DNA of 64,000 bases from an uncultured Pelagibacteraceae bacterium (GTDB lineage Bacteria; Pseudomonadota; Alphaproteobacteria; Pelagibacterales; Pelagibacteraceae), in assembly GCA_902524995.1 (NCBI GenBank), contig CABZFJ010000001.1:124001-188000 (forward strand). Direction: 5' to 3'. The notes beneath the pieces were generated by a model. That model was not told the origin of the DNA. It did no database searches and was given only the letters and a program-made list of their open reading frames with translations. Of this stretch, positions 8,661 to 56,341 are shown one piece after another (position 1 is the first letter of the stretch; every line of letters begins with the position of its first letter). The position numbers were made by a program, and so were the translations under genes.

Positions 8661-10879
8661 TATATTGTTCTCTCTGTTATTGTAGAATTATAAACCTCAA
8701 TTACGTCATTTTTCTGAAAATCGACAAAATCTTTTAGTGTTATTCCACACTCTAAACCAGCAGATACTTGTTTAGTTTGGTTTTTTTCCCTGAATATTGA
8801 GCCTATTTTTCCATTGAAAATTATAGCTCCATCTCTAATAACCCTAGCGCTAGAATCTTGAGTAATTTCTCCATCTGTTACTTTTGAGCCTGCAACCTTG
8901 CCAACTTTTGAAACTTTAAATATTTCCAATATCTCTGCAGTTCCAATAATCTTTTCATCTACTTCTGGTGTTAGTAAGCCAGACATTTTATTTTTTATAA
9001 AATCTAAAACTTCATAAATAATATTAAAATTAGAAATTGAAATTTTTTCTTGTTCAGCCCTTTTTTTAGCTTCTTTGCTAGGTTTTACATTAAAGGCTAT
9101 AATTACAGCTTTAGACGCTTTTGCTAATGTCACATCCGTTTCTGTAACCATTCCAATATCTGATAAAAGTATTTTTGGCTTTACCTCATCATGTTTAATT
9201 TGATTTATAGCACTTTTTATAGCTTCTGAGGAACCATGAACATCTGATTTTATAATAATATTTAATTCCTCAGATGATGTGTCTTTAAAAGCAGAGTCTT
9301 GTGTGACAAAGGATAATGGATTTTTGCTCTCTTTTGACTCTTGTATTCTGCCATCAGATAAAGATTTTGCTTCTTTTTCAGATTTTAGAACAATAAAGTC
9401 ATCTCCTGATTTTGCCGCTCCATTAATTCCTAGTATCTCAATTGGTGTTGAAGGTTCAGCTGAAACGATTTGATTCCCCTGATCATTTATTATGGCTCTA
9501 ACTTTTCCCCACTTTAAACCGCTAACAAAATAATCACCTTTTCTTAAAGTGCCTGCAGTAATAATTACATTTGCAATTGGTCCTCTTCCTATATCAATTT
9601 TAGACTCCAATACTATACCCTTTGCATCAGTATCAAAATCTGTTTTTAGGTCTAATATCTCTGCTTGCAAAATAACACTTTCAACTAATTTATCTAAATT
9701 TTGTTTTGTTTTAGTTGATATTTCTACCATCAATGTATCTCCTGATAAATCTTCAGCTATTAGTTCATATTCTAAAAGTTGATTTTTAATCTTTTTTGGG
9801 TCAGCTTCAGGAAGGTCACATTTATTTATTGCAACAACAATTGGTACTCTGGCAGCTTTTGCATGTTTTATTGACTCTATTGTTTGAGGTTTAACCCCAT
9901 CATCAGCAGCGACTACAAGGATTACAATATCGGTTAACTTTGAACCTCTTGCTCGCATTTCGGTGAATGCTGCATGACCAGGAGTATCGATAAAAGTTAT
10001 CTTATTTTTTTGATGTGTTATCTGATATGCACCGATATGTTGCGTAATACCTCCAAATTCAACAGAAACAACATTAGCTTTTCTCAGTGTATCTAAAACA
10101 GATGTCTTACCATGATCTACATGACCCATAACCGTTACGATTGGAGCTCTACTTTTTAGATTTTGGGTTTTTATTTCTTTAATTTTTTCTAAGATTTCCT
10201 CTGCTTTTTGCTCTTTAACAGGGTTATGTCCAAATTCTTTAACTAAATACTCTGCTGTATCTGAGTCAATTGTATGATTAATTGTTACTGTTACACCCAT
10301 CCCCATCAAATGTTTTATTATACTGCTAGACTGCTCGGCCATTCTATTCGCTAATTCTCTTATGGTAATCACCTCAGGTATATTAATATCTCTTTTAACT
10401 GGTTTAAAATTTTCCTTTAACTCCTCTTTGTTTTGAGATCTGTTTTCTTTTTGCTTTGCTCTTTTTAAAGAAGCAAGACTTCTCGATCTCGTGCCTATAT
10501 CATCTCCACTTAAGGCTCTAGATACTGTAAGCTTTAATTCTCTTCTTTTGCCTCCTAATTTGACAGGTTTGTTCTCTTTTTGTGAATTTTCACCTTTTAA
10601 CCTTCTTGTGGCTCTTTGTTCTGCTAATTTTCTTTTTTCGAAATCAGAAGTTATTGGAGATGAAGGTTTAGAAAAATTTGTTTTTTTTGGGATAAATGTA
10701 CTTTGTAATCTGCTTTCAGTTGACTTGGCACCTCTAGAAAAATTTGGTTTGCCACCAAACCTTGGGGATCTTTTTTCAATTACAACTGTATTTTTTGATT
10801 GAGATTTTGCTTGTTCAATACTATTAATTGTTTTCTTGGACGCTCCAGAAATTGATAACTTTAGTTTTTTCTTTTCCAT
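8660..10879 (-). CDS. infB: translation initiation factor IF-2
   Basis: GTPase motifs VTVMGHVDHGKTSVLDTLR, DTPGHAAFTEMRARG, NKCDLP. Confidence 0.97.
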   Translation of the reverse strand: MEKKKLKLSISGASKKTINSIEQAKSQSKNTVVIEKRSPRFGGKPNFSRGAKSTESRLQSTFIPKKTNFSKPSSPITSDFEKRKLAEQRATRRLKGENSQKENKPVKLGGKRRELKLTVSRALSGDDIGTRSRSLASLKRAKQKENRSQNKEELKENFKPVKRDINIPEVITIRELANRMAEQSSSIIKHLMGMGVTVTINHTIDSDTAEYLVKEFGHNPVKEQKAEEILEKIKEIKTQNLKSRAPIVTVMGHVDHGKTSVLDTLRKANVVSVEFGGITQHIGAYQITHQKNKITFIDTPGHAAFTEMRARGSKLTDIVILVVAADDGVKPQTIESIKHAKAARVPIVVAINKCDLPEADPKKIKNQLLEYELIAEDLSGDTLMVEISTKTKQNLDKLVESVILQAEILDLKTDFDTDAKGIVLESKIDIGRGPIANVIITAGTLRKGDYFVSGLKWGKVRAIINDQGNQIVSAEPSTPIEILGINGAAKSGDDFIVLKSEKEAKSLSDGRIQESKESKNPLSFVTQDSAFKDTSSEELNIIIKSDVHGSSEAIKSAINQIKHDEVKPKILLSDIGMVTETDVTLAKASKAVIIAFNVKPSKEAKKRAEQEKISISNFNIIYEVLDFIKNKMSGLLTPEVDEKIIGTAEILEIFKVSKVGKVAGSKVTDGEITQDSSARVIRDGAIIFNGKIGSIFREKNQTKQVSAGLECGITLKDFVDFQKNDVIEVYNSTITERTI

Positions 10880-10889
10880 TTTTCATCTC

Positions 10890-12443
10890 TCAATCTTGAT
10901 ACACAATGTCTCTTGCTGACATAATCAAATCATCAGCTTCTTTTTTTGAAAGAGCAAAATCTTCTAAATATCCTTTAATTCTTACTCTTTCACCCTTGAC
11001 AACATCATATCCACCTGTCAATTCATCAGATGCCAAATCTGCAAAATCGTTTAGTGTTAATATTTTTTGTTCACCTAGTGTTACAAGCATTCCGGGTGTT
11101 AGACCTTTGTGATTAATTAAATCATTCTCTAACCCTAAATCTTTAATTCTTTTAGATATTTCCTCTTGGTCTTTTTCATAAAATTCTTTAGCTCTTTCAA
11201 TTAATTCTTTAGCAGTCTCTTCTTCAATACCTTCTATTTTCATTAAAGCTTCAGGATTACTATCTTTAATGTCATCTATTGATGAAAATCCTTCTGCTAC
11301 TAGTAATTGTCCTAACGTTTCATCTAGTTCTAAATTTTTTACAAAATTATCTGTTTTCTCTTTGAATTCAATTTGTCTTCTCTCCGAATCTTCTTGATCA
11401 GTCATGATGTTAATTTCGTAATTCATTAATTTGGTTGCCAATCTAACATTTTGGCCCCTTCTTCCAATTGCTTTGCTCAAATTCTCCTCGGTTAAAATTA
11501 CATCAAGCTTTCTCCCCTGTTCATCTACATTAACTCTTTGTACCTCTGCTGGAGAAAGTGCATTTGCTACTACAACTGCTGGATCTTCTGACCAGTTGAC
11601 TATATCGATTTTTTCACCCTGAAGTTCGTTTACAACTGCTTGCACTCTACTTCCCCTCATACCTACACACGCTCCCACTGGATCTAAAGATGTATCAATT
11701 GCACTAACACATATTTTAGCTCTGCTACCTGGATCTCTTGAGGATGATTTAATCTCAATAAGACCATCATATATTTCTGGAACTTCTTGAATGAAAAGTT
11801 TTTCCATGAATTTAGGATGTGCTCTAGAAAGAAAAATTTGCTGCCCTCTTGGTTCTCTTCTTACGTCTAAGCAATATGCTTTTACTCTATCACCTGCCTT
11901 TATATTTTCTCTTGGGATCATTTCATTTTTTTGAATTATTGCTTCGGTTCTTCCAAGATCAACAATTATGTTTCCGAACTCTAGTCTTTTAACTATACCA
12001 CTCAAGATAGTATCAATTTTGTCTTTAAAATCGTTATATTGTCTCTCTCTTTCCGCTTCCCTTACGTTGAAACTAATTACTTGTTTTGCAGTTTGTGCTG
12101 CTATTCTCCCAAAATCAAAAGATGGCAAAGGTTGAAGAACTTCATCTCCAATTTGTTTTCCCTCATTACTTCCATTAAGTTTTATGGCATCATTAAGGGT
12201 TATTTCTAAGTTTGAATTTTCTGGTTTTTCTACAATTACTAGTTTTCTAAATATTCCAATTTCACCATTTTCTCTGTCAATTTCAACTTTGATTTCATTT
12301 TCAGATCCAAACTTGGATTTAGCTGCTTTTGCAATACCGTTTTCCATCGATCCAATAATTAACTCTTTATCAATAGATTTTTCTAATGCTACTGCTTCTG
12401 CTATTCTTATTAATTCTAATTTATCTGCTCTTCTATTTAACAT
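10890..12443 (-). CDS. nusA: transcription termination/antitermination factor NusA
   Basis: S1/KH architecture, DPVGACVGMRGSRVQAVVNELQGEKIDIV, C-terminal HhH repeats. Confidence 0.97.
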   Translation of the reverse strand: MLNRRADKLELIRIAEAVALEKSIDKELIIGSMENGIAKAAKSKFGSENEIKVEIDRENGEIGIFRKLVIVEKPENSNLEITLNDAIKLNGSNEGKQIGDEVLQPLPSFDFGRIAAQTAKQVISFNVREAERERQYNDFKDKIDTILSGIVKRLEFGNIIVDLGRTEAIIQKNEMIPRENIKAGDRVKAYCLDVRREPRGQQIFLSRAHPKFMEKLFIQEVPEIYDGLIEIKSSSRDPGSRAKICVSAIDTSLDPVGACVGMRGSRVQAVVNELQGEKIDIVNWSEDPAVVVANALSPAEVQRVNVDEQGRKLDVILTEENLSKAIGRRGQNVRLATKLMNYEINIMTDQEDSERRQIEFKEKTDNFVKNLELDETLGQLLVAEGFSSIDDIKDSNPEALMKIEGIEEETAKELIERAKEFYEKDQEEISKRIKDLGLENDLINHKGLTPGMLVTLGEQKILTLNDFADLASDELTGGYDVVKGERVRIKGYLEDFALSKKEADDLIMSARDIVYQD

Positions 12444-43474: not shown

Positions 43475-44444
43475 AAAATTTTATGAATTAGATAAATTTG
43501 ACCTGAGTAAATACGACTTTTTTTTAATTTATGGAAAAAATGAGGGTTTAAAAACGGAAATTATTAATAAATATTTTTTTAAAAAAGAATTAAATATTGT
43601 TGATAAATATGATGAATTTGAATTTTTAGAAAATTATAATAATATACTAGATGGGATTTTATCAAAATCACTTTTTGAAAACGAAAAAACACTTATAATC
43701 TCAAGAGCAACTGATAAAATATTCAAATTGATAAGTGAAATATTTGACAGGAATATATCTAACACGAAAATTATAATAAAAAGCTTATCATTAGATAAAA
43801 AATCAAAGTTAAGAAATTTATTTGAAAAGAATAAAAACTTGGTAACAATACCTGTTTATGAAGATACAGACAATAATCTTGCGAATGTAGTAATTAATTA
43901 CTTAAGTAAAAAAAAAATTAAACTTTCAAGAGAATCTATTAATCTTTTAGTAAACAGAGCAACTGGTGATAGAAAAAATATTCAATCAGAATTGGAAAAA
44001 ATTTATAATTATTCAATTACAAACAGTAATATTAGTCATGAAACTGTCCAAAAACTTACAAATTTAGCAGAAAATTATAGCGCAAGTGCCCTGGCTGATA
44101 GCTACTTAACAAAAAACAAAAAAGATATATTAAAAATATTTAATGAGAATAATTATTCTGATGAAGATTGTATTTTAATACTTAGAACATTGCTAAGTAA
44201 ATCAAAAAGATTAATGCATATACTTAAAAAAAATAAAGAAACAAACAGTCTCGATATGGCAATTTCAAGCATTAAACCCCCGATATTTTGGAAAGAAAAG
44301 GAAAGTGTAAAAACACAAGTAAATAAATGGGATTTAAGTGATTTAAAAAAAAAAATATACCAAATAAATGAAATGGAAATGCTTGTTAAAAAAAATTCCA
44401 AGAATAGCTTGAATTTAATTTCAGATTTTATGGTTAATTACTAG
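43467..44444 (+). CDS. holA: DNA polymerase III subunit delta
   Basis: FLIYGKNEGLKTEII...; LVNRATGDRKNIQSELEKI; canonical neighbourhood. Confidence 0.85.
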   Translation: MIKKFYELDKFDLSKYDFFLIYGKNEGLKTEIINKYFFKKELNIVDKYDEFEFLENYNNILDGILSKSLFENEKTLIISRATDKIFKLISEIFDRNISNTKIIIKSLSLDKKSKLRNLFEKNKNLVTIPVYEDTDNNLANVVINYLSKKKIKLSRESINLLVNRATGDRKNIQSELEKIYNYSITNSNISHETVQKLTNLAENYSASALADSYLTKNKKDILKIFNENNYSDEDCILILRTLLSKSKRLMHILKKNKETNSLDMAISSIKPPIFWKEKESVKTQVNKWDLSDLKKKIYQINEMEMLVKKNSKNSLNLISDFMVNY

Positions 44445-45292
44445 TAATTACTCTTTATTACATCAATCAACCTATCAAGTTGATCATAGGCTTTATACTC
44501 AAAAATTAAACTCCCAGTGTTGTTTTTTTTATTTTTCAATAATACCTTCATGCCCAGTCTATCTGTTAATTCCTTTTCAGCAGCAATTATATTTGCATCT
44601 CTTGGTTTATAAATTTTATTTGGACTTTTTTTAACAAGCCTTACTAAATTCTCAGATTGTCTAACTGATAATTTTTTTTTTATTATTTTTTCAGCAATAT
44701 GTAGTGCATTCTCTAAACCAATTAACACCCTTGCATGTCCTTGAGAAATTTTTTCGTTTCGGACCATATCAATGAGTTTTTCTGGGAGTGTAAGCAATCT
44801 TAATGAATTTGAAATGTAAGATCTGCTCTTTCCAATAAATTTAGAAACTTTTTCTTGATCGTAAGCAAAATTATCAATAAGATTTTTGTAACTTTCTGCT
44901 TCGTCTATTGCATTAAGATCTTGCCTTTGAACATTTTCTACAATTGCTAGTTCTAGAGATTTAAGATTGTCAGCTTCAATAACTATTACTGGGACTTCAT
45001 GAAGACCAGCAGATTGTGCTGCCTGCCATCTTCTTTCACCTGCTATTAACTCAAACATATCATCTTGGTCATCTGATTTTCTAACTATTAATGGTTGAAT
45101 AATACCTCTCTCTTTTATTGAATTAGTTAAATCATCCAATGCCTCTTTTTCAAATATTTTTCTTGGTTGATTTCTATTTGGAGTTATGGAACTTATCGAA
45201 ATTTTATCGTTTGATGTTTTTATATCACTATCACCAATCAAAGATGATAAACCTCTACCTAGACCCTTCTTACTTTTAAAGGGATTTATCAT
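44441..45292 (-). CDS. parB: chromosome partitioning protein ParB
   Basis: GLGRGLSSLIGD, ISSITPNRNQPRKIFE, AGERRWQAAQSAGLHEVPVIV, HTH. Confidence 0.96.
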   Translation of the reverse strand: MINPFKSKKGLGRGLSSLIGDSDIKTSNDKISISSITPNRNQPRKIFEKEALDDLTNSIKERGIIQPLIVRKSDDQDDMFELIAGERRWQAAQSAGLHEVPVIVIEADNLKSLELAIVENVQRQDLNAIDEAESYKNLIDNFAYDQEKVSKFIGKSRSYISNSLRLLTLPEKLIDMVRNEKISQGHARVLIGLENALHIAEKIIKKKLSVRQSENLVRLVKKSPNKIYKPRDANIIAAEKELTDRLGMKVLLKNKKNNTGSLIFEYKAYDQLDRLIDVIKSNY

Positions 45293-46089
45293 GCTGCACT
45301 CTCCACTTGTTTATCTTGTTCTAAAAACTCCTCTGTAAATTTAAAATAAGCTTTACTGCCTGGACAAATCTTATCATATAATAATACAGGTATACCATGT
45401 GATGGTGCTTCAGACAGTCTTACATTTCTTGGAACTGCTGTTGAATAAACCTTATCTTTAAAATAATTCCTTGCTTCTGTCTCAACCTGCCCTGAAAGTT
45501 TGTTTCTTTTATCAAACATTGTAAGAAGAATGCCTCTAATTTCTAGCGACGGATTCAAATTAGATTTTATTCTATCTATAGTTTTTATAAGTTGTGTAAG
45601 TCCTTCCAAAGCAAAAAATTCTGTTTGAAGAGGTACCACCAAGGCGTCTGAGGCCACTAAAGCCATAATTGTGAGCAGACTTAGCGATGGAGGACAATCT
45701 ATGAGAATATAATCGTATGATGCTCTAGAATTATTTAATATTAGGGCTAATTCGTCTTTTAATTTGAAGGCTCTACGGCTATCTCCAGCAGTTTCAACCT
45801 CAAGTCCTGATAAATCTACGTTTGAGGTGACTAAATCTAGATTTTCAAATTCTGTTGGTTGAATTACTTCTGAAATATTCATGTTTCCATTAAGCACATT
45901 ATAAATTGTAGTGTTGGAATTTGAACTGTTAGATAACCCAAGACCAGTAGTTGCATTTCCCTGTGGATCTAAGTCTATTACTAGAACTTTTTTTCCTTTC
46001 ATGGACAATCCAGCTGCTAAATTGATGACTGTAGTGGTTTTACCTACCCCTCCTTTCTGATTTATAATCGAAATAATTTTATTGTGCAT
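45289..46089 (-). CDS. parA: chromosome partitioning ATPase ParA
   Basis: ISIINQKGGVGKTTTVINLAAGLS, IDLDPQGNATTGLG. Confidence 0.97.
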   Translation of the reverse strand: MHNKIISIINQKGGVGKTTTVINLAAGLSMKGKKVLVIDLDPQGNATTGLGLSNSSNSNTTIYNVLNGNMNISEVIQPTEFENLDLVTSNVDLSGLEVETAGDSRRAFKLKDELALILNNSRASYDYILIDCPPSLSLLTIMALVASDALVVPLQTEFFALEGLTQLIKTIDRIKSNLNPSLEIRGILLTMFDKRNKLSGQVETEARNYFKDKVYSTAVPRNVRLSEAPSHGIPVLLYDKICPGSKAYFKFTEEFLEQDKQVESAA

Positions 46090-46096
46090 TTTTTAA

Positions 46097-46774
46097 TCAA
46101 AATAAATTTTTGTTTTCATGATTTAAATCTTTAAATTTTTTTTTTTTTAAGTTTGAAATTTTTATAATCATTGAGCCTTCATTAGTTACACTTTTCATTT
46201 CTTCGTAGTCAAATTTCCAAAATTTAAGTGCATCTTTTAAAATTTCTTTTCCACTTGTCCCTAAAAATAAAATTATGTATTTAAATATTTTAAAATTTTT
46301 TTGTGCTATTTCAAAAATTATTGGCAAAGGTTTAAAAGCTCTTGAAATGATTACATCTGTAATTAAATTTTTTTCATTAAAAATATCTTTTTGATGAATT
46401 TCTGAATTTAATTCAAATTTTTTTGCCATATTTTTTAGAAAAATACTTTTATGGTAACTCTTTTCGTAAAAAACCAGCTTAAACACTGGTTTTTTTGATT
46501 TCATCAAAATACCTAAAACTATACCTGGTAAACCAGCACCTGATCCAAGGTCTGTGCATATGCTAATATCTTTTTTATCAATAAAATCAATAGTTTGCGC
46601 ACTATCTTCAATATGTCTTGTTTTAATTAGTTTTTCTGAGGATTTACTAATTAAATTAATACTTTTATTTCTTAATATTATTTCTTTTGAGTAATCTTGA
46701 AGTTCTTTTAATGTTTCACGTGAAACATTTGGAACTAGTAATTTATCAGTTTTTAAAATATTCGAATCAATCAA
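46097..46774 (-). CDS. rsmG: 16S rRNA m7G527 methyltransferase
   Basis: [15 protein letters not shown]; gidB position between mnmG and parA. Confidence 0.94.
46712..46727. promoter_or_regulatory. parS centromere site (inside rsmG)
   Basis: TGTTTCACGTGAAACA, perfect 16-bp palindrome matching the bacterial parS consensus. Confidence 0.92.
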
Positions 46775-48642
46775 GCTATATGCTTAATAGACCTTCTTTT
46801 AAGGTGAGACAACAAAATATATACCGCCGCCGGCGTAATGCCATCTATTCTAAGAGCTTGACCCATGGTTTTTGGCTTAATTTTCTTAAATTTAAATTTA
46901 ACCTCATTTGATAAGCCAGCAAAAGAGTCATAATTTATATTTTCAGGAATAATAAGGTTTTCATCTCTTTTAAATGCCAATATATCTGCACTCTGCTTCT
47001 TCAAATAACCTCTATAATGAGAGTTAATTTCTAACTGCTCGTCTATTTCACGTGAAACATATTGAATTTCTGGCCAAATCTCTCTTATTTTACTCATTTT
47101 AACTGATTTTTGGCCTAATATCTGAGTAGCTGTACGACTTACCCCATCTTTAGCGATATTTATACCATATTTTGCCACTTTTGATGGAGTAATCTTAATT
47201 TTATCCATTTTATTTTGAATTTTTTTCAACTGAATGAATTTATCTATATATTTTTCCTCTCTTTCTTTTGAAACTAATCCAATATCTATTCCTTTTTGAG
47301 TTAATCTCATATCTGCATTATCTGATCTCAGTGAAAGTCTATATTCAGCTCTTGATGTAAACATTCTATATGGTTCTGCAACACCTTTGGTTACAAGATC
47401 ATCAATCATGACGCCTATGTAAGCATCAGATCTATCTAAGATAAAAGGTTCTTTTCCTTTAATACTCAGGGCGGCATTAATACCTGCTACTAATCCTTGG
47501 GCAGCAGCTTCCTCATACCCCGTAGTTCCATTAATTTGACCTGCAAGAAATAGATTTTTAATTTTCTTGGTCTCTAGAGTAAGAAAAAGTTCTCTTGGGT
47601 CCACGTAATCATACTCAATTGCATAACCAGGTCTTATAATTTTAACATTCTCTAAACCATTGATTTTATTACATATTTCTTGCTGAATATCAGCTGGAAG
47701 TGATGTTGAAATACCATTTGGATAAATTGTATTATCATTTAATCCCTCTGGCTCTAAAAAAATTTGATGCCGATCTTTATCAGCAAATTTCTTTATTTTG
47801 TCCTCTATAGATGGACAATATCTTGGGCCTACACCTTGTATGTTACCAGAATACATAGCACTTCGTTTTATATTTTTAGAAATAATTTTATGAACAGCTC
47901 TATTTGTATATGTCATTCTACATGAAATTTGTTTGTTTAAATTTTTTTTTGTTAAAAATGAAAAGAAGTATGGATCTTTATCTGCATGTTGCTCCTCTAG
48001 ATTTCTGAAGTTTATTGTGCGAGCGTCTAATCTGGGAGGAGTTCCAGTTTTTAATCTACCGATCTTAAAATTATATTTCTCTAGTTGTTCACTTAATCCT
48101 GTAGAAGGCTTTTCATTAAACCTTCCTGCTGCAAATTTTTCTTCGCCAATATGTATTAAACCATTTAAGAAAGTTCCAGTTGTGAGAATTATCTTAGATG
48201 ATTTTACATATTTACCTGATTGGGTAGCAAACCCAACTATCTCATTATTTTTAAAATAAAACTTAATTACAGGATCAGAAAAAATGCTTAAATTACAATA
48301 GTTTAGAAGATTTTTTTGCATATATTTCTTATATAATGATCTATCACTTTGTGTTCTTGGGCCCCTAACAGCAGGTCCTCTACTTCTATTTAACAATCTA
48401 AATTGTATTCCTGATTTATCAGCTACTACACCCATGACTCCGTCGAGTGCATCTATTTCTCTTACTAAGTGACCCTTGCCCAAACCTCCAATTGCAGGGT
48501 TACATGACATTTCTCCAATGGTATCAAATTTATGTGTGAATAAAGCAGTGTTAACTCCTAATCTCGCTGATGCTGCGGCTGCTTCGCAACCAGCATGTCC
48601 ACCACCTATAACAACTACATCGAATAGAAAGTCATTTTTCAT
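46771..48642 (-). CDS. mnmG: tRNA uridine 5-carboxymethylaminomethyl modification enzyme MnmG
   Basis: [21 protein letters not shown]...[21 protein letters not shown]. Confidence 0.97.
47044..47059. promoter_or_regulatory. second parS-like site (inside mnmG), one mismatch
   Basis: TATTTCACGTGAAACA versus TGTTTCACGTGAAACA. Confidence 0.78.
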
Positions 48643-50050: not shown

Positions 50051-50096
50051 TAAATCAATTATAGCTAGTATTGAATTTAAATATATAAATTTTTCT

Positions 50097-50933
50097 ATGA
50101 TTATATGGATCGCGTCTTACCCAAAAAGTGGAAATACATGGGTAAGATCATTTTTATCTTCCTATTATTTTTCTAAAGACGGAAATTTCGAATTTAAATT
50201 GTTAAAAAATATTAAACAATTTCCTAGTAGAGAATTTTTTAGCAAGAGAATAGAAACTATCGAGGAAGCATCTGAAAAATGGATTATCATTCAAAAAAAT
50301 CTTAAAAAACTTAATAAGGCACGTTTCCTTAAAACTCACAATGTGTATGGAGCATATAAGGGAAATCATTTTACAACACCAGAGGTTACGTTGGGAGCAA
50401 TTATAATTGTGAGAGATCCTAGAAATGTAATTACTTCATTAATGAATCATTATTCAATTAATGAGAAAGAAGCACTTGAAATGATAAAAAGCATTTATCG
50501 AAATTTAAAAGACAAGAATGACTCTGATAATTATGCAAGTTATTCATTTATAAGTTCTTGGGCAAATAATTATAATTCATGGAAAAACTCAAATATAAAA
50601 AACAAACTTTTTATAAAATATGAAGATTTAGAAAAAGATACTGAAAGCACGTTTGAAAAAATTGTTCAATTTACTAATAAACTACTTAATAATAAAAAAG
50701 ATGTTGATAAAAGAAAATTAAGTAAATCAATTAAAAGCACTAATTTTAATGAATTAAAAAAGATGGAAAAAAGTAAAGGTTTTGATGAAGCTAGCTTTTC
50801 TTCGGATGGAACAAGGAAAACATTTTTTAACTTAGGCAAAGATAACAATTATAAAAAGCTTCTTAGCTCAGAAATAACCACAGAATTAGAAAAATTTTTT
50901 TATAAAGAAATGGGTGAATTAGAATATTTATGA
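50097..50933 (+). CDS. sulfotransferase-domain protein
   Basis: MIIWIASYPKSGNTWVRSFLSSYYF (5'-PSB motif) and VRDPRNVITSLMNHY (3'-PB). ATG at 50097 preferred over 49896, which overlaps mnmE. Confidence 0.9.
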   Translation: MIIWIASYPKSGNTWVRSFLSSYYFSKDGNFEFKLLKNIKQFPSREFFSKRIETIEEASEKWIIIQKNLKKLNKARFLKTHNVYGAYKGNHFTTPEVTLGAIIIVRDPRNVITSLMNHYSINEKEALEMIKSIYRNLKDKNDSDNYASYSFISSWANNYNSWKNSNIKNKLFIKYEDLEKDTESTFEKIVQFTNKLLNNKKDVDKRKLSKSIKSTNFNELKKMEKSKGFDEASFSSDGTRKTFFNLGKDNNYKKLLSSEITTELEKFFYKEMGELEYL

Positions 50934-53246: not shown

Positions 53247-54239
53247 TTAAATACTCTTTAATATAAGATTATTTATTAATTTAATGTGATCATCGTTATC
53301 GTTCAGACATGGAATCATTTCAAAGTTTTCTCCTCCAGACTCCATAAAACTCTCTTTACCTTGTATCAATATTTCTTCTAGTGTTTCCACACAGTCAGAA
53401 GAAAACCCCGGACAAATTGCTAAGACATTTTTTTTTCCCTCCACTGGTAATTTCTCAAGTGTTTTATCAGTGTAAGGTTGAAGCCATTCTTGTGGACCAA
53501 ATCTAGATTGAAAAGTTGTTTTAATTTCTATATCATTAAACTTTTCATTTATTAACCTAGTAGTTTTATGACAATAACAATGATAAGGATCGCCTTTATC
53601 GAAGTATTTCTTCGGAATTCCATGATATGAGGCTAATATCAAATCTGGCCTCCAATTGATCTCATTAATTTTTTTATTGATAGAGTTTACCAAAGCATCA
53701 ATGTACAAAGGATGTGACTCATAATGAGGTATTATTTGTAAGGATGGTTGCCATCTCATATTCATAAGTGTCCTATAAACCTCATCACAAACAGTTGCGG
53801 TGGTAGCTGCAGCGTATTGAGGATATAAAGGTAGAATTACTAAATTTTCGCAGCCTTCTTCATGAAGTTTTTTTATTTTATTTTTGATACTTGGATTTCC
53901 ATATCTCATTGCAAAATCTATAATTAAATTTTCGTTTGATATTAAATTTCTTACCTTTTCTGCTTGTTTCTGTGTATAATATAAAAGAGGTGACATATTT
54001 TCTTTTTTCATCCAAATTTCTTTATAAGCCTTAGCAGTTTTAGATGGTCTTAGGTTAAGTATAAAAACGTTCAAAATTATCTGCCACAAGATTGGGTTAA
54101 TCTCTATGACTCTTCTGTCAGAGAGAAACTCTTTTAAATATTTTCTAATGTCTAACCAGCTGGTTGAGTCTGGTGTGCCAAGATTAATGATTAGAACACC
54201 TGTTTTTCCATACTTAACTTGGGGATGATCTAAGTTCAT
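53247..54239 (-). CDS. hemH: ferrochelatase
   Basis: KTGVLIINLGTPDS, YPQYAAATTATVCDEV, SYHGIPKKYFDKGDPYHCYCHKTT. Confidence 0.96.
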   Translation of the reverse strand: MNLDHPQVKYGKTGVLIINLGTPDSTSWLDIRKYLKEFLSDRRVIEINPILWQIILNVFILNLRPSKTAKAYKEIWMKKENMSPLLYYTQKQAEKVRNLISNENLIIDFAMRYGNPSIKNKIKKLHEEGCENLVILPLYPQYAAATTATVCDEVYRTLMNMRWQPSLQIIPHYESHPLYIDALVNSINKKINEINWRPDLILASYHGIPKKYFDKGDPYHCYCHKTTRLINEKFNDIEIKTTFQSRFGPQEWLQPYTDKTLEKLPVEGKKNVLAICPGFSSDCVETLEEILIQGKESFMESGGENFEMIPCLNDNDDHIKLINNLILKSI

Positions 54240-55237
54240 TTAAATTCCCTAACAATTCTTACTAGTTCTCTCACCATTTCAATTTCTGTTTCGGGCAGAA
54301 TACCATGGCCCAAGTTAAATACATAAGGATGATTATTAAAAAATTCTAAATATTTTGTCGCTTCAATTTTCAAGTTGTTTTTGTCAGTTAATAAGATTTT
54401 TGGATCTAATCCACCTTGTATTGGTATATCAACATCATTAAGTAATTTTTTTAGATCTGTATTATAATCTATATTTATCATACTAGGTTTCACAATTTTA
54501 CAAAATTCAACGTAATCTTTTATACCTCTTGGAAAACAGATTACAGGAACTCCAAGTTTTTTAGTATAATCAACTAGAGACGATGTAGGTTTATATAAAT
54601 ATTTATCAAAATTAGTATTAATTAATCCTGCCCAGCTATCAAATATTTGAATTATTGTTGCCCCTGCTCTTATTTGGTTTCTAATGTGTTTTTTAATAAA
54701 TTTATCTAAAATATTTAGTAAATTATCTATTAAAATATTGTCTTTGAAGAAAGTATTAGAGAGGCCATTCTTAGGCGAAACTTTATTTATCATATAAACT
54801 AATAACGTCCATGGAGCTCCCACAAAACCTATTAAATCTCTATTTTTTAATTTTTCATTCTTACTCAAATTCTCTAATAAATCGTATATGGGTGATAATT
54901 TATTAGTTAAAAGTTCATCATCCAATTTTTCGAATTTATCTAAATCTATATTTCCAAGACAAGGACCAAAATTTTTTTTAAATTCTACTTCTTGGCCAAG
55001 TCCATATGGAATCATAAGAATATCGGAAAAGATAATGGCAGCATCGAAACCGAATCTATCAATTGGTTGAATTGTTATCTCCTCTGATAGTTTTGAATCT
55101 AAACATAGTTTCACAAAGTTTGTATTTTTTTTTCTTATTTCTCTGAATTCAGGTAAATACCTTCCAGCCTGTCTCATAAGCCAGATAGGATTAATGCTAG
55201 TATCTTTGTTTAATATACAATTTTTTATTGGTGTCAT
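54236..55237 (-). CDS. hemE: uroporphyrinogen decarboxylase
   Basis: PIWLMRQAGRYLPEFREIR, FSDILMIPYGLG, NLGHGILPETE. Confidence 0.96.
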   Translation of the reverse strand: MTPIKNCILNKDTSINPIWLMRQAGRYLPEFREIRKKNTNFVKLCLDSKLSEEITIQPIDRFGFDAAIIFSDILMIPYGLGQEVEFKKNFGPCLGNIDLDKFEKLDDELLTNKLSPIYDLLENLSKNEKLKNRDLIGFVGAPWTLLVYMINKVSPKNGLSNTFFKDNILIDNLLNILDKFIKKHIRNQIRAGATIIQIFDSWAGLINTNFDKYLYKPTSSLVDYTKKLGVPVICFPRGIKDYVEFCKIVKPSMINIDYNTDLKKLLNDVDIPIQGGLDPKILLTDKNNLKIEATKYLEFFNNHPYVFNLGHGILPETEIEMVRELVRIVREFK

Positions 55238-55519
55238 TTATAATAAGAATAATATATTTAGATTTATTATTAGTATGATTTGTAGATAACGTAAATTACT
55301 CAATTTCAACACTTTTTTCACCATTTATACATTCAATATGAAGAAAAACTCCTTTAAAAGAAGGCTTATTTGATCATCTTAAATAAATATAAAATTGTTG
55401 AAAAGATATTAACATTTATAAATATGTTAATTAAAAGATTACAAATAACAAAAAACTATCAATTGTTGCTTAATTGAAAATATCTTTAATTTTAGTAATA
55501 CTTTGTTGACAAATTATAC
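55238..55519. other. candidate chromosomal replication origin (oriC)
   Basis: 282-bp AT-rich gap between hemE and the RP001/ppsR homologue (the known Caulobacter/Rickettsia origin context); DnaA-box-like TGTAGATAA at 55281; replichore-like divergence of flanking genes; parABS nearby. Confidence 0.75.
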
Positions 55520-56341
55520 ATGAAAAATACACACCAAGTTTATTTAATATCTGACTCAACTGGGGAAACACTTGATAGAATATTCATGGCACTTAAAGCC
55601 CAGTTCAATAATTTTAATTATGATTTGAATCAATTTTCGTTTACAAGAACAGAAAATCAAATCTCATCAATTCTTAGTGGTGCTCAAGAAAAAGAAAGCC
55701 CAATAATTTTATACACTGTAGTAAATAGTAAACTAGCTAAATTTTTAGCTGATGAAGCAAACAAGAAAAAAATTCCCTGCTTTGGTGTTTTAGGAGATTT
55801 AATTCTAAACTTTTCTAAAATATTAAATGAAAAGGCAACTCACCAACCAAGCGCTCAACATGTTTTAGATGAAGACTACTACAAAAGAATTGAAGCAATA
55901 CAATTTACAATGAACCATGATGATGGAAATAATACAGAAAATATATTGGATTCAAATATTATTTTAATTGGTGTCAGCAGAACTAGCAAAACCCCAACCT
56001 CGATTTATCTAGCAAATAAAGGGTTAAAAACTTCTAACATACCATTAGTTAATGAAATGAGTATACCAAAGGAAGTTATAGAATCTAAAAATATTTGTGT
56101 AATTGGACTTACAACTGAAGCAGAGAGATTGTTTGATATAAGAAGAAATAGGCTTAACTCATTAAAGGAAAATGAGGCTTCTGATTATACTAATCTAGAA
56201 AAAATTAGAAATGAGGTTGACCAATCTAAGAAATTATTTAAGAAAAATAAATGGCCTGTAATTGACGTGACTAGAAAATCTGTTGAAGAAACGGCAGCAT
56301 CCATAATTAAAATTTTTGAAATACAAAATAAAAATGTTTAA
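55520..56341 (+). CDS. kinase/pyrophosphorylase (PpsR/DUF299, RP001 homologue)
   Basis: VYLISDSTGETLDRIFMALKAQF; IILIGVSRTSKTPTSIYLANKGLKTSNIPLV. Confidence 0.94.
   Translation: MKNTHQVYLISDSTGETLDRIFMALKAQFNNFNYDLNQFSFTRTENQISSILSGAQEKESPIILYTVVNSKLAKFLADEANKKKIPCFGVLGDLILNFSKILNEKATHQPSAQHVLDEDYYKRIEAIQFTMNHDDGNNTENILDSNIILIGVSRTSKTPTSIYLANKGLKTSNIPLVNEMSIPKEVIESKNICVIGLTTEAERLFDIRRNRLNSLKENEASDYTNLEKIRNEVDQSKKLFKKNKWPVIDVTRKSVEETAASIIKIFEIQNKNV

Follow-up and report, generated by a model that had tools for sequence, protein, structure and literature searches.

Does the intergenic region between hemE and ppsR serve as the origin of chromosome replication (oriC) in bacteria of the SAR11 group? 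The origins of Caulobacter crescentus and Rickettsia prowazekii lie between hemE and COG1806 (PMC1914354), and no published SAR11 oriC was found in the literature that we searched. We studied a stretch of 64,000 nucleotides, referred to as the window (G000:C1:124001-188000), from a 1.12 Mb assembly of 47 contigs. The host belongs to Pelagibacteraceae (SAR11); its closest named relatives, with 97% identity in ppsR, come from uncultured Pelagibacteraceae (single cells and MAGs). A preliminary description of the window had proposed that the hemE-ppsR gap is an oriC with an unusual layout that is poor in DnaA boxes. Our analysis of this sequence and of its relatives indicates that the gap is almost certainly the place where chromosome replication starts in this bacterium. 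In kind and location such an origin is ordinary, i.e., it is of the hemE/COG1806 type (PMC1914354). What appears to be new, so far as the searched literature shows, is how the SAR11 origin is defined, together with its AT-shifted boxes and DnaA-trio unit.

The hemE-ppsR gap and its conservation

The gap occupies positions 55238-55519 (282 bp). Its GC content is 0.181, i.e., 18%, compared with 0.24-0.34 in 5-kb bins of the contig, which makes it more AT-rich than the genome average. No intergenic space in the window is longer; where a longer stretch is uncovered, it belongs to a gene truncated at an end of the window. On one side lies hemE, encoding uroporphyrinogen decarboxylase (54236-55237, - strand; Pfam URO-D, 4.2e-80), and on the other ppsR, the COG1806/RP001 homologue encoding a kinase/pyrophosphorylase (55520-56341, + strand; Pfam Kinase-PPPase, 4.5e-92). 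Transcription is directed outward on either side. The - strand flank includes hemE, hemH, a flavodoxin-type gene, rho, mnmE, mnmG, rsmG, parA (45289-46089, - strand; assigned by sequence and by its position beside parB), and parB (44441-45292, - strand; Pfam ParB_N, HTH_ParB, and ParB_C). The + strand flank is ppsR-maf-aroE-SDR-coaE-dnaQ. Two + strand genes, a sulfotransferase gene and a TM gene, interrupt the - strand run on the hemE-parB side; the sulfotransferase-domain gene (50094-50933) is inserted between mnmE and rho. The length, AT-richness, and divergent flanks of the gap are as the preliminary description gave them, and Pfam confirms both neighbours. Boundaries formed by hemE and COG1806 are characteristic of alphaproteobacterial origins of this type.

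The preliminary description suggested an alignment of the gap across related genomes, and this revealed strong conservation. Wherever both genes could be read, namely in 108 loci, hemE and ppsR stand divergently side by side (108/108), and the gap between them measures 254-291 bp (median 281). The P. ubique genome is 95.5% coding (PMC2031905). The constant length is notable because SAR11 genomes hold so little non-coding DNA. Within the aligned gaps, the hemE-proximal third (55263-55316) is the most conserved, followed by the TTGTTRA...ATTMACA...ATGTTAATTAA block (approximately 55393-55436) and then by the final 20 bp ahead of ppsR. The repeats listed in the preliminary description were all located: two copies of AATTGTTG (55393-55400 and 55461-55468), the inverted repeat TTAACAT-N8-ATGTTAA (55409-55430), and the pair AAAGATATT (55402-55410) and AATATCTTT (55479-55487). 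The TTAACAT/ATGTTAA pair is conserved in relatives, as is the slot of the sequence TGTAGATAA discussed below; the second AATTGTTG copy and the AATATCTTT arm are retained only in the closest relatives. We rejected a conserved mid-gap hairpin or terminator in the CTCCTTTAAAAGAAGG region: the stem is not kept in relatives, and neither a terminator match nor an Rfam match was obtained.

In G022, a member of another genus of the family, rho rather than hemE is divergent from ppsR (locus L229, G022:C1:1050839-1070838, 9986-12432). ppsR went undetected in all 12 genomes from the order's second family (G098-G109); thus the origin boundary there must differ.

DnaA-type boxes in the gap

The box reported in the preliminary description, TGTAGATAA at 55281-55289, is present and has one mismatch to the DnaA box TGTGGATAA. 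Read on the - strand, it is TTATCTACA. It occupies a conserved slot (slot 1), where relatives carry TTATCAACA, TTATTAACA, TTATTCACA, or TTATCCACA. Near-consensus boxes (at most two mismatches) are not enriched in the window (262 versus 270 in shuffles). The window's gap contains six sites within one mismatch of TTATNMACA, all of them one mismatch off; the P-value of 0.044 is marginal, and the 283-kb contig has eight further places with as many. Since the box counts of the window itself are at the level of chance or marginal, we drew the significance of the gap elements from a comparison with relatives.

Across the 52 dereplicated gaps, TTATTAACA outnumbers every other 9-mer: it has 62 copies, while 630 permuted 9-mers matched to it in composition have 2.4 on average. 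The pattern TTATNMACA, represented mostly by TTATTAACA, was observed 130 times in these gaps versus 8.6 expected in dinucleotide shuffles, although z-scores of this enrichment overstate independence because the gaps share ancestry. A control free of this problem is the search for the densest cluster within a genome. In G063, G003, G035, and G022 the gap is the densest 280-bp cluster of TTATNMACA in the sampled part of the genome, on a background of 0.14-0.21 per kb. In the sampled parts of the genomes, the gap is thus the family's richest cluster when the AT-shifted box is counted, and the window's own copy is marginal. An unseeded EM motif search returned an uninformative AT pattern.

At least one TTATNMACA is found in 51 of the 52 gaps, and the sole exception is the gap of the window. 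The view of the gap as box-poor holds only in part: it fits the window's copy but not the family, as relatives have AT-shifted boxes at conserved slots. The box-poor look arises because SAR11 boxes diverge from the Escherichia coli consensus and because the copies in the window's lineage have drifted further. Only one box had been noticed by eye because the window's gap has no exact TTATNMACA and only the six one-mismatch sites. Its other slots hold degenerate boxes of the DnaA type. Two of them belong to slot 3: TTTTCAACA (55396-55404, - strand), where relatives have TTATTAACA, and ATATTAACA (55406-55414, + strand), where they have TTATTCACA. A third, TAATTAACA (55425-55433, - strand), falls in a conserved ATGTTAATTA block. 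The last, TTGTCAACA (55504-55512, - strand), is close to the ppsR start, and many relatives have TTATTAACA on the + strand at this slot.

Could TTATTAACA be the site of another regulator, the gap still being the origin and the contacts of the initiator being different? The sequence is two mismatches away from the E. coli box and from TTATCCACA, and the DNA-contact helix of DnaA is canonical (RDHTTVIHS), i.e., no compensating change was found. However, slots that carry TTATTAACA hold TTATCCACA, TTATTCACA, or TTATCAACA in other SAR11, and slot 1 stands at the spacing expected from a DnaA-trio. Moreover, TTATTAACA is identical to the putative boxes at oriC in Mycoplasma hominis, M. mobile, and M. 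arthritidis (PMC2751442). These AT-rich genomes also have no useful GC skew; unlike the SAR11 gap, the Mycoplasma oriC lies beside dnaA, and the lineage is unrelated. We regard another regulator as unlikely. SAR11 boxes appear to be an AT-shifted form of the DnaA box and are predicted to bind DnaA.

A DnaA-trio-like unit at the hemE end

Slot 1 is the anchor of a conserved unit, 5'-TATTATTAGTAT-N4-TGTAGATAA-3'. Coming from hemE towards the anchor box, the + strand reads TAT TAT TAG TAT (55265-55276), then four bases (55277-55280), then TGTAGATAA. Counted from the box, this array is 3'-TAT GAT TAT TAT-5', with A in the middle of each trio. The 4-nt spacing is equal in most aligned gaps. On the other side the box adjoins CGTAAATTA (55290-55298, + strand), which is nearly invariant in alignments of close relatives. 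Among 41 gaps, the middle base is A in 88-95% at each of four successive trios, in a single register, and T/G changes within trios keep this register. The contrast between registers is significant (P<1/2000 permutations), likewise in 22 distant relatives alone. Three trios followed by N4 and a box occur on the + strand of 31 of 53 gaps and never on the - strand (shuffle mean 0.0). Whole-genome searches with the trio-N4-box pattern gave seven matches in 13 genomes, five of them within this gap. Matches to a reversed control pattern are about equally numerous in whole genomes; hence it is the location of the pattern that is rare, not the pattern itself. Genera g2 and g4 keep TAG-N4-TGTT with only one or two trios.

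Requirements on box orientation and trio strand are taken from the case of Bacillus subtilis. A basal unwinding system (BUS) consists of a DnaA box with at most two mismatches, a spacer of 0-16 nt, and, on the correct strand, three or more 3'-NAN-5' trios, the trio 3'-GAT-5' being favoured (PMC8287927). The SAR11 unit has such a box, spacer, trios, and strand, and so appears to match the DnaA-trio and box of a BUS. It is like the BUS of B. subtilis and others (PMC6669920, PMC8287927) in box orientation, trio strand, and the 4-nt spacer, and, judging from the sequence, also in having at least four middle-A trios and adjacent DNA of least stability. It differs in its single anchor box of the TTATCTACA type, in the prevalence of 3'-TAT-5' over 3'-GAT-5', and in its weakening in g2 and g4. 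Within the gap, the minimum of nearest-neighbour stacking puts the 50 bp of lowest stability at the hemE end (55238-55288), as it does in 27 of 52 dereplicated gaps. This is the probable DNA-unwinding region, and the three-base repeat probably marks the site of DNA opening.

The two divergent genes need transcription from the gap, so promoters of both hemE and ppsR must also lie within it, and the highest conservation falls in the block on the hemE side. One might therefore suppose that the gap is only a divergent regulatory region, its blocks serving hemE and ppsR as promoters or operators, with the origin elsewhere. Promoter-like matches are no more frequent than in shuffles (4 versus 4.2). 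In G022, where rho replaces hemE, TATTATTAG-GGAA-TGTTTATAA is present beside ppsR. Since the unit persists there, it belongs to the origin rather than to hemE, and we rejected the hemE promoter as the source of the conserved block. Besides, both parS and the orientation of genes across the genome are centred on the gap (see below). A purely regulatory role is very unlikely.

Chromosomal position and the proposed SAR11 origin

A perfect parS centromere, TGTTTCACGTGAAACA, is found inside rsmG (46712-46727), 8.5 kb from the gap, and a second copy with one mismatch inside mnmG (47044-47059). Each of the 13 genomes examined has a perfect or one-mismatch parS at 8-19 kb from ppsR; the genome of the window and G043 have two copies each. 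In G005 and G022, which belong to other genera, parS is on the other side of ppsR than in the window. Thus the local order was rearranged while parS stayed close.

We also determined the origin position that places most coding sequence on leading strands in six complete genomes, each sampled at 20 stretches of 20 kb (approximately 28-33% of the genome; G040 was left out). In all six, the optimum coincides with the gap or is at most 5% of the genome away from it, with 59-76% of coding sequence leading. With strands randomized among directons, the P-values are <0.0002 (G022), 0.008, 0.02, 0.03, 0.073, and 0.075, i.e., two genomes are not individually significant.

Cumulative GC skew, which had been suggested as a check of the proposal, does not locate the origin in these genomes. 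The raw skew of the contig tracks gene strand and has its minimum 53 kb from the gap. The skew at four-fold sites is small, its sign is inconsistent, and its polarity is inverted in several members of the genus. We therefore rejected both forms as an origin locator, the first being dominated by gene strand and the second weak after correction. On the inferred leading strand, four-fold sites are slightly C-rich in G043, G003, and G035; the opposite is seen in G022. The GC skew of P. ubique was described as atypical (PMC2031905) and as suggesting unequal arms (PMC2099444). A search for an E. coli-like dif at the terminus gave no match at three or fewer mismatches.

In many other bacteria the origin adjoins dnaA. 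Here dnaA is approximately 64 kb from the gap on the hemE side, a spacing kept across the genus. An origin beside it is extremely unlikely: dnaA does occupy this region in every genome, the gap upstream of it is likewise 243-291 bp long with 18-22% GC, and the co-orientation optimum is 60-70 kb broad in some genomes, but in four genomes TTATNMACA is absent from dnaA and its 1-kb flanks, ppsR is much nearer to parS than dnaA is, and the alphaproteobacterial precedent is hemE/COG1806.

Synteny and gap length, parS, co-orientation, the box cluster, the box-free dnaA, the trio unit, and the precedent of Caulobacter and Rickettsia all support the oriC proposed in the preliminary description. Very probably, the gap is the chromosomal origin in this SAR11 organism, with opening by a DnaA box and trios at the hemE end, bidirectional forks, and parS nearby. 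DnaA would bind the box nearest to hemE (55281-55289), along with several others, weaker or diverged, in mid-gap and near ppsR. Starting at this anchor box, it would be loaded over the 4-nt spacer onto the trio strand (55265-55276) and would stretch that strand. The very AT-rich hemE end would then open, and the helicase would enter there; the remaining boxes may serve DnaA assembly and the regulation of DnaA. Forks would depart both ways, co-directionally with hemE and ppsR, and ParAB would act on parS.

The SAR11 gap shares divergent boundary genes, AT-richness, and DnaA boxes with Caulobacter Cori and the Rickettsia oriC. In contrast to these origins, which exceed 400 bp, it is approximately 280 bp long, its boxes are AT-shifted, and the IHF motif WATCAANNNNTTR is not enriched (7 versus 4.4 expected in 52 gaps). 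In the same gaps GANTC (CcrM) sites are depleted rather than enriched, and the CtrA-type pattern TTAA-N7-TTAA occurs 56 times versus 28.8 expected, a count confounded by the AT-rich boxes. A ctrA orthologue was reported to be absent from Pelagibacter, unlike Caulobacter (PMC2877005). Because IHF is not enriched, GANTC is depleted, and ctrA is reportedly missing, control of the Caulobacter type, including CtrA, is not expected. With no IHF, CtrA, or GANTC (CcrM) input visible, control of initiation would rest on DnaA alone. We lean slightly towards a minimal SAR11 oriC of approximately 280 bp, with the shifted box consensus TTATTAACA, a single unit of anchor box and trios, and such DnaA-only control, in which the boxes of the window's sublineage would have decayed further.

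Metagenome growth-rate estimates depend on the ratio of origin to terminus coverage. An origin defined by sequence would provide a fixed anchor for such estimates in a group where GC skew fails. It also offers a small origin for testing in a lineage reported to have no CtrA.
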